Position numbers and translations under genes: made by a program. Of a DNA stretch of 34,991 nucleotides, positions 1-31,633 are shown piece by piece. The notes beneath the pieces were generated by a model. It did no database searches. It was not told where the DNA came from and worked only from the letters and a program-made list of their open reading frames with translations. The stretch lies in IMG/VR virus record IMGVR_UViG_3300024520_000261, positions 1 to 34,991 of that record; one strand, given 5' to 3'. Numbering within the stretch: position 1 is the stretch's first letter; each line of letters starts with the position of its first letter. This DNA comes from a virus.

Positions 1-194
1 TATTTCAATTCTCCAAAGGAGTTCCTCTACTTTACCTTTTATACCTTGTCTTTCCCCATCAATGCTCAATTCTAAGAACTGAGATGGAGGAGCTGTAGGC
101 TTGGATAGCCTAGTAGGATAATGAGTTTACCCTAGTAGAACCTTCCCCCAAGAACCGACTTCTATGTAAACCCTACTCCCATATTTATATATTA

Positions 195-225
195 CCACAC
201 TTTTTACTATAATTTGTGTGGATAA
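195..225 (-). promoter_or_regulatory. Perfect DnaA box beside a TATAAT element, within a small inverted repeat
   Basis: TGTGGATAA at 217-225 is the exact reverse complement of the high-affinity DnaA box TTATCCACA. It overlaps the right arm of an inverted repeat, CCACAC (195-200) and GTGTGG (216-221), whose 15-nt spacer contains TATAAT at 208-213. A protein bound here would cover that -10 element or its start site. An origin or autoregulatory role is inference. Confidence 0.5.
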
Positions 226-256
226 ACCTCTTATATTTAGTCTTAGAATATGTTAT

Positions 257-262
257 TATAAT
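257..262 (+). promoter_or_regulatory. Candidate -10 element for the first gene
   Basis: TATAAT at 257-262 would place the transcription start near 269, within the left arm (265-277) of the inverted repeat and 36 nt before the ATG at 305. No good -35 hexamer sits 16-18 bp upstream, so the promoter is weak, activator-dependent or wrong. The alternative is TATAAT at 208-213 with TTATAT 17 bp upstream. Confidence 0.35.
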
Positions 263-264
263 AG

Positions 265-277
265 TTAGTAAGTGGTC
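265..277 (+). repeat. Left arm of a 13-bp inverted repeat flanking the first gene
   Basis: TTAGTAAGTGGTC at 265-277 is the exact reverse complement of GACCACTTACTAA at 807-819. The arms lie just upstream and just downstream of the coding region 305-796. They could be paired operators, or they could let the two ends of the mRNA base-pair. Confidence 0.75.
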
Positions 278-904: not shown

Positions 905-1840
905 ATGAATATAAATGATACTAATAATATAGTAGATTGGTTTACTCGCAGAGGTATAACCGAAAAAACATTAAAAGATTTTGATGTTTCAGTAAACGAT
1001 GTATCAATCGTAATCCCAGTTCATAATGAAGAAGGGATTTTTCTTTATAATAAATACCGAAGACTACCTCATATATACAAAGGACCAAAGTATACATACG
1101 ATACAGGAGGTAAGGCTCAGTTGTACGGACAGCAGAACTTAAAGAAGTCAGACCGTTTTGTAATTACAGAAGGTGAGATGGATTGTTTAGTTCTTAACTC
1201 ACACCAGATACCCGCAGTTTCTTCAACAGGAGGTGCAAATACATTCTTTCCAGAATGGGTTGAGCTTCTAAAAGATAAAGAAGTAACAATATGTTTTGAT
1301 AATGATGAGCCAGGAGGAAAAGGAATGGCACGGATGTATAAACTCTTTCCAAATGCGAAGTTTGTCTTTGTTCCAGAAGACTCAAAAGTAAAAGATATTT
1401 CAGACTATTTCAATAGAGGCGGGGACGTTCATAAACTAATGAAAACAGGTATTCACTTTGATTCTTTAGTTGATATTGAAAAGAATATGAACGAAAGGAA
1501 CGCTAACTGGCAACAAACTTATTTCCATAAGCAAGTAATAAAAGATAACCTACCAGAGCCAACACCTACCAAAATAACTATCCCAAGAAAGAATCTTGAT
1601 GAGCTTGAGCGTGCAAAAGATATTCCAATTAGTTCTTTAATTAGTGTACCAACTCACGGAGAGAATAAGAATAAAGTTAATTGTCTTTGGCATACAGAGA
1701 ATACTCCATCAATGCATATCTATAAAAAGACAAACACTTTCTACTGCTGGGGTTGTGGTAAGCACGGTGACTCCGTAGAAATAGCTATGAAAGTTCACAA
1801 CATAACCTTTGTTGAAGCCTTAGTATTATTAAACAAATGA
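905..1840 (+). CDS. TOPRIM primase with C-terminal CHC2-type zinc finger (permuted domain order)
   Basis: Probable replicative primase, making RNA primers. Numbering is from the upstream in-frame ATG at 890 (316 residues); I prefer the ATG at 905 because 890 overlaps a TATAAT. Residues 14-90 resemble the N-terminal lobe of phage T7/Twinkle-type primases (RRGITEKTLKDF, YNKYRR). A TOPRIM domain follows: ITEGEMD with Glu94, then FDND with Asp137 and Asp139, the metal-binding acidic pair. The last 60 residues form a zinc finger with Cys265, His268, Cys286 and Cys289 (CLWHTENTPS, CWGCGKHGD), matching the DnaG zinc domain. In DnaG and T7 gp4 the zinc domain is at the N-terminus; here it is last. 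The gene ends in TGA overlapping the next ATG by four bases, so translation is coupled. Confidence 0.85.
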   Translation: MNINDTNNIVDWFTRRGITEKTLKDFDVSVNDVSIVIPVHNEEGIFLYNKYRRLPHIYKGPKYTYDTGGKAQLYGQQNLKKSDRFVITEGEMDCLVLNSHQIPAVSSTGGANTFFPEWVELLKDKEVTICFDNDEPGGKGMARMYKLFPNAKFVFVPEDSKVKDISDYFNRGGDVHKLMKTGIHFDSLVDIEKNMNERNANWQQTYFHKQVIKDNLPEPTPTKITIPRKNLDELERAKDIPISSLISVPTHGENKNKVNCLWHTENTPSMHIYKKTNTFYCWGCGKHGDSVEIAMKVHNITFVEALVLLNK

Positions 1841-4485: not shown

Positions 4486-4844
4486 CACCAAAGGTAATGA
4501 AGTGGTTTGCAGGAACTGCAATTACATCTTGCCCATTTGAAATTAAACATACGTTAGGTAAGAATAGATTTACATTATCAAAACTAAGTGAACACCAACG
4601 GAACTGGTTACGTGCGTCTACTACTGAACGAGGAATAACTTATAAGTTGGTAGATGCGAACATCGGGTTTCAACCCTTTGATTGTATACACTACAAGAAC
4701 TCTCCCGCTTACGTTATCATCGTGTACCCTACAACAACCTGTGCAATTCATATCAAGATGATTATGGCTTGGAAGAAGCCGTCTATCACAGAGAAAGAAG
4801 CAATAAGCATTTCAAGTTTCATACGACTTACAGAGGAGCTATAA
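4461..4844 (+). CDS. Probable PD-(D/E)XK-family nuclease, Holliday-junction-resolvase-like
   Basis: 127 residues. The arrangement CPFEIKHTLGKNRF (about 24-37, with the E-x-K pair) then LSEHQRNWL (42-50), then GFQPFDCIHYKN and AYVIIVY matches small phage and archaeal endonucleases of the PD-(D/E)XK fold. These cut branched recombination or replication intermediates. The context after primase, ATPase and helicase fits. It begins inside the helicase gene (25-bp overlap). A second in-frame ATG at 4497, after AAAGG, would give a 115-residue product and is a plausible alternative start. It is the last gene of the plus-strand replication module and runs into the shared terminator at 4847-4870. Confidence 0.65.
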   Translation: MQSKEANITPKVMKWFAGTAITSCPFEIKHTLGKNRFTLSKLSEHQRNWLRASTTERGITYKLVDANIGFQPFDCIHYKNSPAYVIIVYPTTTCAIHIKMIMAWKKPSITEKEAISISSFIRLTEEL

Positions 4845-4846
4845 AA

Positions 4847-4870
4847 AAAACCCCTAATTAAAGGGGTTTT
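4847..4870. terminator. Bidirectional terminator between replication and late operons
   Basis: AAAACCCCT (4847-4855) pairs perfectly with AGGGGTTTT (4862-4870) around a 6-nt loop. A-runs precede and T-runs follow the stem, so it can stop transcription from both sides. It is the meeting point of the plus-strand module ending at 4844 and the minus-strand operon ending at 4873. Confidence 0.85.
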
Positions 4871-4872
4871 CT

Positions 4873-4944
4873 TTACGCTTCTTCTGGCTCTTCTGTAGCT
4901 TCTTCTTCAACTACAGGTGCATCTGCTTGTGGTTCATCTACCAT
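4873..4944 (-). CDS. Tiny acidic peptide gene at the end of the late operon
   Basis: A 23-codon frame (MVDEPQADAPVVEEEATEEP then EEA) lying between the CHAP-like hydrolase and the bidirectional terminator. Ten of 23 residues are acidic and three are proline. The codon choice looks like its neighbours and it fills the gap almost exactly, but it is short and has no ribosome-binding sequence. It could also be a remnant of an acidic C-terminal tail. Confidence 0.4.
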   Translation of the reverse strand: MVDEPQADAPVVEEEATEEPEEA

Positions 4945-4972
4945 AGTATTGTTAGTTAATTGATAATTACTT

Positions 4973-29375: not shown

Positions 29376-30572
29376 CTATCTTCCTCTATTCTGTGCCTTT
29401 CTGTTCTTTATAAAGTCTGGTAAGTTTATCACCATCTCCTTCTTCCTTATCACAGGTACAAGTGAGTTCATCGCATATCGGACTGCGTCCATAAGGTGGT
29501 CCTTTCCGCCTTCTGGTTTGTTTAATTGCTTCCCGTTCTTATCTACATCCCACATATAATTCCTATATTCCTTAATGAGATTGACTGAACTCTTTGTCAC
29601 AAACACTTTCTGGTCCTGTACCCCCATAATTCCATGACGTATGGAGTCTGCTCCCTTCTTACATGGTAAGACGTTAATCCCATACAATCTGACTTCCGCT
29701 ATACTCTTTGGCTCTGCAGAGTCCGCTATAACAAGTGCTTTATCCATATTCTTCAGCATATTAGCCATCTCCCTGTTACTCATCTCTAACTGGTACGACA
29801 CCTCATCCAGAATATATCCTCCGTTCCAGTAGTATATTGCCACTACTGCGGCTGGGTCTGGATTCCATCCGAAGTCTACCCCATACCTTTCCAGCCTTGC
29901 TTCGTGGGGAAGTTCGTCTATAATCTCCCAATCCGTATATATTCTTCCTTCCAGTCCGTCTCCCAGCTCTCCCTGACCATACACCTTCCACCACTCTGGT
30001 CTGTTCTTCCTCTTCTCTATCGTACTCACTATCTGTGGGTCCAATGCTTCGTTATCCTTATATGTGAGGATAATGAACTCAACATCGTCTCTGTCTAATA
30101 CGTACTCATGTACCCAGAATTGCGCTGTCGGGTTATAGTCAAGTATTATTAAGTCTTTAGTACGGACTTCTAACTGTTCAAACGTTTCAAAAGGATTGTT
30201 ATTCGCTTCGTTCATAAACAACCTGTCTCTTCTCGGTCCTCTAACTTTATGTGGCTGGTCCAGAGAGAAAAACTCTATACGACTTCCTGTTTCAAAGGTA
30301 TATGTAGCCTCAGTCTTATTCCATGCGTCTGGATTGTAATACCCCTGTGTCTGCATAATGTCAAGGAAGTCTTTCATCGCACCCCTTTTCAGGTGTGGAT
30401 AAGACTCTGACGTTATACTCGTCAGAGTAGGAGTTTTATCTCTCTGTGCCATGTCAATCAGGACTTGTATAGTCCCAATGGTTTTACCTGCCGAAGTACC
30501 ACCCTGAATCACCCAGAGTCGTTTACTTAGCTGATGTATCTTTTTTGTCGCTGTTGTTATTGTATAAGGCAT
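29376..30572 (-). CDS. terL: Terminase large subunit
   Basis: 398 residues. DNA-packaging motor with ATPase and nuclease. ATPase: Walker A GGTSAGKT at 24-31, Walker B-type RLFMNEA with catalytic Glu122, coupling motif LDYNP at 144-148. Nuclease, RNase H-like: Asp233 in GVDFGWNPDP, Asp284 in VIADSAEP, and Asp358 and Asp362 in KDHLMDAV. All expected acidic residues are present. Length is short for the family but both domains are complete. It overlaps the small subunit gene by 50 bp; the Walker A so close to the start shows the chosen ATG is right. Confidence 0.95.
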   Translation of the reverse strand: MPYTITTATKKIHQLSKRLWVIQGGTSAGKTIGTIQVLIDMAQRDKTPTLTSITSESYPHLKRGAMKDFLDIMQTQGYYNPDAWNKTEATYTFETGSRIEFFSLDQPHKVRGPRRDRLFMNEANNNPFETFEQLEVRTKDLIILDYNPTAQFWVHEYVLDRDDVEFIILTYKDNEALDPQIVSTIEKRKNRPEWWKVYGQGELGDGLEGRIYTDWEIIDELPHEARLERYGVDFGWNPDPAAVVAIYYWNGGYILDEVSYQLEMSNREMANMLKNMDKALVIADSAEPKSIAEVRLYGINVLPCKKGADSIRHGIMGVQDQKVFVTKSSVNLIKEYRNYMWDVDKNGKQLNKPEGGKDHLMDAVRYAMNSLVPVIRKKEMVINLPDFIKNRKAQNRGR

Positions 30573-30891
30573 CTAATAGTGGCTTAGGCGTTGTTACTTC
30601 TATCGTAGAATTGTCCCCAAACTCCTTTTTCTTCTTCCGTTTCAGATAGTCCATAGCGTTGCTATAACTCTCTGTCATCTTCTCATTAACGGTGTTTCTA
30701 GCCTTAAGTACAGGCGTATTTCTCAATTCCTGTATCCTGTCGGAAAACTTCTTATCCTCTGCCATCCATGCATATATACTATCAGGATGTACACCGCCAT
30801 ATAGAGCCATTTCAGCTATCGTTCCATCCAATGCTGCAACCTCTTCTATTTTCCGTATAACTTCAGGAGTTTTTTTTGTTGGTCTTGCCAT
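30523..30891 (-). CDS. terS: Terminase small subunit
   Basis: 122 residues. N-terminal helix-turn-helix region (KTPEVIRKIEEVAALDGTIA in part, then GGVHPDSIYAWMAED) for recognising the packaging site, a central helical oligomerisation segment, and a basic region KRKKKKEFG. Together with its position before terL this identifies it as the DNA-recognition subunit. First gene of the late operon. The leader is about 107 nt from the likely promoter. Confidence 0.8.
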   Translation of the reverse strand: MARPTKKTPEVIRKIEEVAALDGTIAEMALYGGVHPDSIYAWMAEDKKFSDRIQELRNTPVLKARNTVNEKMTESYSNAMDYLKRKKKKEFGDNSTIEVTTPKPLLDALYNNNSDKKDTSAK

Positions 30892-31005
30892 ATTACTTAT
30901 GATTAGTTGTTAAGAATTACCATATATGTCACAAACAATTAGGAAGGTGTTAAGCTTCGTGGCTTGTTTTCTTCCCTGTACACATAAGTGGTTTTAATTA
31001 CTATA

Positions 31006-31035
31006 ATAATAGTACCAATTGCGCTGTTGTGTCAA
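31006..31035 (-). promoter_or_regulatory. Sigma70-type promoter for the late operon
   Basis: On the minus strand TTGACA (31035-31030) is followed after 18 bp by TATTAT (31011-31006), one mismatch from TATAAT. Transcription would start near 30999 and reach terS at 30891. It is the best minus-strand promoter found upstream of the 26-kb late operon. Confidence 0.6.
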
Positions 31036-31071
31036 GTTCCATTGAAGTGGATATGTTCCTTTTTAGTAAAG

Positions 31072-31100
31072 TTGACGTCCTAGAAAATCTCAATTATAAC
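31072..31100 (+). promoter_or_regulatory. Plus-strand promoter upstream of the RNA candidate
   Basis: TTGACG (31072-31077), 17-bp spacer, TATAAC (31095-31100): one mismatch in each hexamer. Predicted start near 31107. A transcript from here would include the full stem 31132-31139/31170-31177. Confidence 0.5.
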
Positions 31101-31111
31101 AATAAATCTGC

Positions 31112-31140
31112 TTGACAGTATTGACACCTAGCCTTACAAT
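31112..31140 (+). promoter_or_regulatory. Near-consensus plus-strand promoter of the RNA candidate
   Basis: TTGACA (31112-31117) with an exact 17-bp spacer to TACAAT (31135-31140), one mismatch from consensus. The predicted start is near 31147. A second TTGACA sits at 31121-31126. It is exactly 40 bp downstream of the previous promoter and points at the terminator 31227-31250 with no open frame between. Confidence 0.6.
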
Positions 31141-31146
31141 ATCAGT

Positions 31147-31250
31147 ATCGCAGACCTGTGATACTTCTCTTGTAAGGTGGCTACTGTGGCATAGTTCAAC
31201 GCACAACATAGCCCTTAAATCAAAAAAACCGCATTTCTGCGGTTATTTTT
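31147..31250 (+). ncRNA. Probable small regulatory RNA, about 104 nt
   Basis: Bounded by a near-consensus promoter and a strong terminator, and without any ATG-initiated frame. Predicted hairpins: AGTATCGCA (31144-31152) with TGTGATACT (31157-31165), which keeps one G-U pair; GGCTA (31179-31183) with TAGCC (31209-31213) plus TGTG/CACA inside; and the terminator stem. The first hairpin is the inner part of a longer structure with arms CCTTACAA (31132-31139) and TTGTAAGG (31170-31177), available only to transcripts from the upstream promoter. The two starts may therefore give two folds. Target and function are unknown. The region could instead be a DNA-level site such as a packaging site. Confidence 0.5.
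31227..31250. terminator. Bidirectional terminator
   Basis: AACCGCA (31227-31233) pairs perfectly with TGCGGTT (31238-31244) around a 4-nt loop, flanked by A-run and T-run. It can end the plus-strand RNA from 31147 and the minus-strand gene ending at 31271. Confidence 0.85.
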
Positions 31251-31270
31251 TTACTTTATTTCCTGATAAT

Positions 31271-31534
31271 TTATTTTTTGGATAAACTATCCCTTGCTTT
31301 GTCAAACTCTTCACCCCCTGTTTTTATTTTAATAATAGGAAAAGTTTTTTCTTCTTGTACTTTCTTTTTCACATTCATTGTTTTTCTTTCAAGAATAATG
31401 TCATCAACAACTAACCTATCTTCACCATTAAACACCTGTATTACATTTGCCCTAGCCTTTCTATATCTAATAGTTGCATATATTTCATTTAATCTTGCAT
31501 TTCTAAACTCTGTTACTATTTTATTTTTATCCAT
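31271..31534 (-). CDS. Isolated 87-residue protein with a leaderless-type promoter
   Basis: 87 residues from the ATG at 31534; an upstream ATG at 31588 exists but would lie inside the promoter. Basic protein (MDKNKIVTEFRNARLNEIYA start; Lys-rich middle MNVKKKVQEEK), mixed alpha-beta, no recognised domain. It is transcribed alone against the flow of the early genes, from a promoter back to back with the small-gene array promoter. Single-gene units in such a position often encode regulators, but no helix-turn-helix is visible here. Confidence 0.65.
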   Translation of the reverse strand: MDKNKIVTEFRNARLNEIYATIRYRKARANVIQVFNGEDRLVVDDIILERKTMNVKKKVQEEKTFPIIKIKTGGEEFDKARDSLSKK

Positions 31535-31595: not shown

Positions 31596-31617
31596 ACTTT
31601 GCCATTGACTTTGCCAT
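31596..31617 (+). repeat. 10-bp direct repeat over the array promoter
   Basis: ACTTTGCCAT occurs at 31596-31605 and 31608-31617, a 12-bp period, bracketing and overlapping the -35 hexamer at 31605-31610. Regular spacing at a promoter suggests a repressor or activator operator. Confidence 0.6.
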
Positions 31618-31633
31618 AGCCTTAGTATATACT
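31605..31633 (+). promoter_or_regulatory. Promoter of the small-gene array
   Basis: TTGACT (31605-31610), 17-bp spacer, TATACT (31628-31633). Start near 31640, followed by an A/T-only leader to the ATG at 31681. Best-placed promoter for the whole rightward array. Confidence 0.7.

Follow-up and report, generated by a model that had tools for sequence, protein, structure and literature searches.

Does the longest gene-free stretch of this phage genome hold a small RNA gene driven by tandem promoters, as the first-pass annotation had proposed? The window that we analysed, i.e. the whole stretch of 34991 bases, is one virus record and is densely coded; with the gene set picked by hand from the ORF list, its longest gap is the 379-nt interval 30892-31270 in which the feature sits. 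On one side of the gap lies terS (30523-30891), which belongs with terL (29376-30572) to the minus-strand late block (both assigned through PHROGs), and a late-operon promoter, TTGACA-18-TATTAT (31006-31035, minus strand, read from 31035 to 31006; 11/12), reads into both genes. On the other side lies an 87-aa minus-strand ORF (31271-31534) that has no family match and is convergent to the candidate RNA. Beyond it, the early-operon promoter called at 31605-31633 (TTGACT-17-TATACT, plus strand) precedes the small plus-strand genes that begin from about 31680; the placement of the locus between the late-operon promoter and the early genes was therefore right. Elsewhere in the window, the strongest fold (4801-4972) is found between the convergent early and late blocks and is probably a bidirectional terminator. 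The usual gene start in the window is TAATATG, with no clear Shine-Dalgarno sequence, which hints at unusual host translation signals.

Two plus-strand promoters lie within a promoter cluster

Both plus-strand promoters have exactly the boxes, the 17-nt spacers and the 40-bp separation that had been claimed for them. P1 (TTGACG-17-TATAAC, 31072-31100) scores 10/12, with a start expected near 31107, and P2 (TTGACA-17-TACAAT, 31112-31140) scores 11/12, with a start expected near 31147. The 379-nt gap contains four promoter-like sites of at least 10/12 versus 0.35 expected, a number that none of 1000 gap shuffles reached, and two sites of at least 11/12 versus 0.018 in shuffles. Across both strands of the 35-kb window, no site other than P2 and the divergent late promoter reaches 11/12. 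Chance is no explanation for this cluster.

Repeat comparison revealed that P2 carries a motif, AGCCTTACAATAT (31130-31142, plus strand), in common with the early promoter (AGCCTTAGTATAT, 31618-31630). The shared element at the -10 box, AGCCTTANNATAT, has exact matches in the window at these two promoters only. An equally good local match was seen in 15 of 2000 shuffled pairs, and the comparison, being post hoc, is modest evidence. This likeness suggests that P2 is an early-class promoter, on which ground the candidate RNA would most likely be made early. A further sequence at the early promoter, TTTGCCmTAGCCTTwsTATAT (31610-31630), has an 86% alike copy inside the 87-aa ORF (31446-31466), and the two are possible regulator sites.

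The gap holds a terminator and no credible reading frame

Downstream of P1 and P2, at the place where it had been reported, is the intrinsic plus-strand terminator AACCGCA-TTTC-TGCGGTT with its U tract (31227-31244). It is good on both strands, being terminator-like in the minus direction as well, and it also faces the end of the 87-aa ORF. It is therefore not independent evidence for an RNA gene and may belong to the 87-aa gene.

The claim that no open frame intervenes was nearly right: there is no ATG on the plus strand between the promoters and the terminator, and the one long frame present, 57 codons from a TTG (31112-31285), starts in the P2 -35 box and runs straight through the terminator, which does not make a credible gene. 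As far as sequence signals go, the candidate thus has its own promoters and a terminator with no credible ORF between them. A cis-antisense RNA of the OOP or sar type was rejected, since the 87-aa ORF reaches only to 31271 and does not overlap the candidate, whose terminator is at 31244.

A near-palindrome overlaps P2 and would form the first of two hairpins

The complementary arms noted earlier, 31132-31139 (CCTTACAA) and 31170-31177 (TTGTAAGG), do complement each other perfectly over 8 bp. They make up the outer section of an inverted repeat of 22+22 nt (31132-31153/31156-31177) with a 2-nt centre, and no other repeat in the 35 kb reaches 18/22 Watson-Crick pairs; a comparable repeat (again at least 18/22) arose in five of 200 whole-window shuffles and in three of 5000 gap shuffles. 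In plus-strand RNA the repeat would form hairpin I (31131-31178), composed of an outer stem (31131-31139/31170-31178), a 4x4 internal loop and an inner stem (31144-31152/31157-31165), with one centre common to both stems. Hairpin II (31179-31213; GGCTA 31179-31183 with TAGCC 31209-31213, plus TGTG/CACA) abuts it directly, and with the stem at 31227-31244 this bears out the earlier description of two hairpins followed by a terminator stem.

Which strand would be the RNA? Taken over the complete candidate region, the two strands are about equal in folding, with similar z-scores, and hairpin I, being nearly palindromic, can fold on both. Its one internal G-T pair, G31150-T31159, is a wobble in plus-strand RNA and an A-C mismatch on the opposite strand; because of this wobble, and because the promoters point along the plus strand, the plus strand is weakly favoured.

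The same near-palindrome might act as DNA. Extending over P2 from the -10 box to about +30, it could be an operator at which a phage regulator governs P2 and perhaps the divergent late promoter, any RNA being incidental. In favour of this, it overlaps the -10 box and start of P2, and a related phage (L016) has, upstream of its early promoter, a repeated GCCACGTTTATGCTGACAG, a palindrome with the same half-site and a terminator. However, no other promoter of the window has the half-sites again: the complete site occurs once and the half-site turns up as often as chance predicts, so the sharing of a half-site among co-regulated promoters was not found, and the common AGCCTTANNATAT motif is a separate, weaker lead. 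Moreover, a 4x4 mismatched segment and a G-T pair are more in keeping with RNA than with a dimer site, and an operator leaves P1 and the terminator unexplained. We regard it as an unlikely explanation.

The two predicted transcripts would fold differently

From promoter and terminator, two RNAs are predicted: a longer one of about 140-145 nt from P1 (31107-31252) and a shorter one of about 100-105 nt from P2 (31147-31252), which would begin directly with a 5'-terminal hairpin. The folding energy is -40.9 kcal/mol (z -4.6) for the P1 RNA, with none of 200 shuffles as good, and -25.4 (z -2.1) for the P2 RNA. Stable structure above background is hence found for the P1 form and more weakly for the P2 form. 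Since the P2 RNA minus its terminator is not unusually stable (z -0.4), most of the structural signal is due to hairpin I, and only the P1 transcript has its outer stem. In a regression-based sliding fold scan of the window, the region was among the lowest, not the lowest.

Pair probabilities for the outer stem in the P1 RNA are mostly 0.97-1.0, dropping to 0.86 at the innermost pair, and they uphold the earlier point that only the P1 transcript can form the outer 8-bp stem. In the P2 RNA this stem is impossible: the tip of hairpin I stays as a 5'-end hairpin, and AGG (31175-31177) is partly paired with CUU (31214-31216). Hairpin II has a probability of about 0.77 in the P1 RNA and about 0.85-1.0 in the P2 RNA, and the terminator is predicted to form in both, at about 0.9-1.0. 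Of the proposed fold switch by promoter choice, then, the difference between the predicted folds stands; the terminator forms either way, and any use made of the difference is our inference.

Could the hairpins instead serve in cis? As a leader behind P1 and P2, they might modify the polymerase or control the terminator, by attenuation or by put-like antitermination; RNA from read-through would then oppose the 87-aa gene as antisense and continue in the direction of the early operon. The put RNAs of HK022-type phages consist of two abutting hairpins soon after an early promoter. The candidate has a similar predicted arrangement, with two hairpins abutting directly at the transcript start, 13 nt before the terminator, and 31147-31154 can pair with 31236-31243 within the terminator. 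Yet the probability of this antiterminator pairing is only about 0.09, and the terminator, which here (unlike in put RNAs) comes immediately after the hairpins, should form normally according to the prediction. The early operon is also served by a promoter of its own, and read-through would next meet a gene on the opposite strand. We consider a leader function distinctly improbable.

Only an identical copy of the feature was found

We searched for relatives of the feature and of its neighbours. One sister contig (IMG/VR 3300024518_001704) has zero differences over 13.8 kb including the feature and 99.8% identity in the other piece compared, and continues for 2.3 kb past the window's right end; it represents the same phage and no independent relative. 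With TerL as bait we collected 33 loci, the best independent one 66% identical, with terS nine loci and with portal five; the neighbouring 87-aa and 172-aa ORFs yielded no relatives except the sister contig. In L055 (portal 81% identical), the closest of the relatives that span this place, small minus-strand genes lie upstream of terS, and both the gap and the feature are absent.

Searches with the feature itself gave a consistent picture. Rfam 15, at gathering and permissive thresholds, assigned no family in the window or its relatives, the weak matches being terminator-driven and far below threshold; blastn against phages and plasmids returned short matches only, mainly to the terminator; exact and degenerate pattern scans of viral contigs matched only the sister contig; and a covariance model, built from the single sequence and run against 41 other loci and 20 whole records, found no convincing relative, the best outside match (E = 0.66) being a hairpin plus terminator in L015/L016. 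No conservation of the pairing could be shown in this comparison, which is limited to identical sequences: the only other copy is identical, and Rfam, BLAST and the covariance model gave no relative. The feature is either young, fast evolving, or confined to unsampled close relatives. Target prediction, also suggested for the candidate, was run against gene starts and did not rise above shuffled controls (17 of 100 shuffled RNAs scored equally well).

Several of the collected loci have structured stretches of their own. Two of these are upstream of terS. The one in L025, a TerL relative (1170-1299, minus strand of the locus), is a multi-branched structure with an outer stem GAGCGTTGCTAAGAG/CTCTTAATAACGC and a pair of inner hairpins (z about -4.3); it follows a TGGTATAAT promoter-like site and precedes a 235-aa gene, and Rfam gave nothing for it up to E = 1. 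The one in L004, a relative at 63% in TerL (88-272, minus strand of the locus), is an imperfect long hairpin, GAGTTCACAAGGCTACTAAA...TTTAGTAATCTTGTCAACTC, with a terminator after it (z about -3.5). The L016 stretch (1160-1619, minus strand of the locus), where the repeated GCCACGTTTATGCTGACAG is accompanied by a perfect palindrome, TATGCTGACAGgtgtCTGTCAGCATA, and by a terminator immediately before the early promoter TTGACT-17-TATACT, looks like an origin or operator array. Because these structures have no sequence relation to the candidate RNA, a positional rule is only an idea. The sole TerL match in a bacterial genome (L053, PNNB01000044.1) is to a 63.8 kb contig from a MAG that bears the label Sphingopyxis; the contig may belong to a phage and have been binned together with that genome.

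The sister contig also bears on a packaging (pac/cos) or replication site used as DNA, which we hold to be very improbable: pac/cos sites are often upstream of terS, as this locus is, and hairpins are common at origins, but the contig passes through the place without an end and repeat searches found no iterons, observations with which a headful pac site would still be compatible.

Discussion

We conclude that the feature is best read, and with fair probability, as a gene for a phage-encoded small non-coding RNA, ahead of an operator, a leader or a packaging or replication site. It also accounts most economically for the combination of clustered strong promoters, stable predicted hairpins and a terminator in a gene-free gap of a densely coded phage. 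From the small regulatory RNA of the first-pass annotation, the promoters, hairpins, terminator and gap position have been retained, and neither conservation nor a target has been added. Besides the fruitless search for relatives and targets and the possible assignment of the terminator to the 87-aa gene, the following speak against an RNA gene: the ordinary genes of L055 in the same place, the unremarkable folding of the P2 RNA once its terminator is removed, and the similar folding of the two strands.

If the small RNA gene is real, host RNA polymerase with a sigma-70-type factor would start at P2, and probably also at P1, and would stop at 31227-31244, producing an RNA of ~100-105 nt or 140-145 nt made up of hairpin I, hairpin II and the terminator stem. 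The longer form would contain the complete hairpin I, whereas the shorter would keep only its tip as a 5'-end hairpin, with UUCUCUUGUAAGG exposed or partly paired. Whichever form is made, the RNA would most likely be produced early and act in trans on RNA of the phage or the host, either through base pairing or by binding protein. The promoters, hairpins and terminator are there to be read in the DNA, and the transcription, timing and mode of action proposed here follow from them by inference.

How does the candidate compare with known systems? Packaging RNA of the phi29 type is a structured phage RNA of similar length; the candidate differs from it in having no Rfam match and in belonging to a phage with terS and terL. 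Lambda OOP RNA (77 nt) and P22 sar RNA (68/69 nt) are short phage antisense RNAs (review PMC12197685). Like them, the candidate would be a short RNA among phage control genes, and OOP likewise has its own promoter; they are, however, antisense to known phage genes, whereas the candidate lies in a gap, overlaps no opposite-strand gene and has no sequence relation to either. Intergenic RNAs of phages and prophages, for example Esr41 (PMC12197685), that act at a distance would fit the anatomy of the candidate, although it has no sequence or Rfam relation to them.

The candidate is in kind ordinary, since phages encode small RNAs, and it belongs to no known family. It is nevertheless a well-supported candidate, compact, testable and with ends that are clear. 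Non-coding RNAs in phages of uncultured bacteria are, in our judgement, little explored. A bolder version of the small RNA reading, suggested by the fold predictions and in our estimate very unlikely, would make the locus an RNA switch by promoter choice: with the full hairpin I from P1 and no outer stem from P2, one locus would give two functionally different RNAs that time the early-to-late change in an uncultured host. Should it be true that the two starts give two folds, the locus would show in a simple case how promoter choice sets the structure of an RNA.
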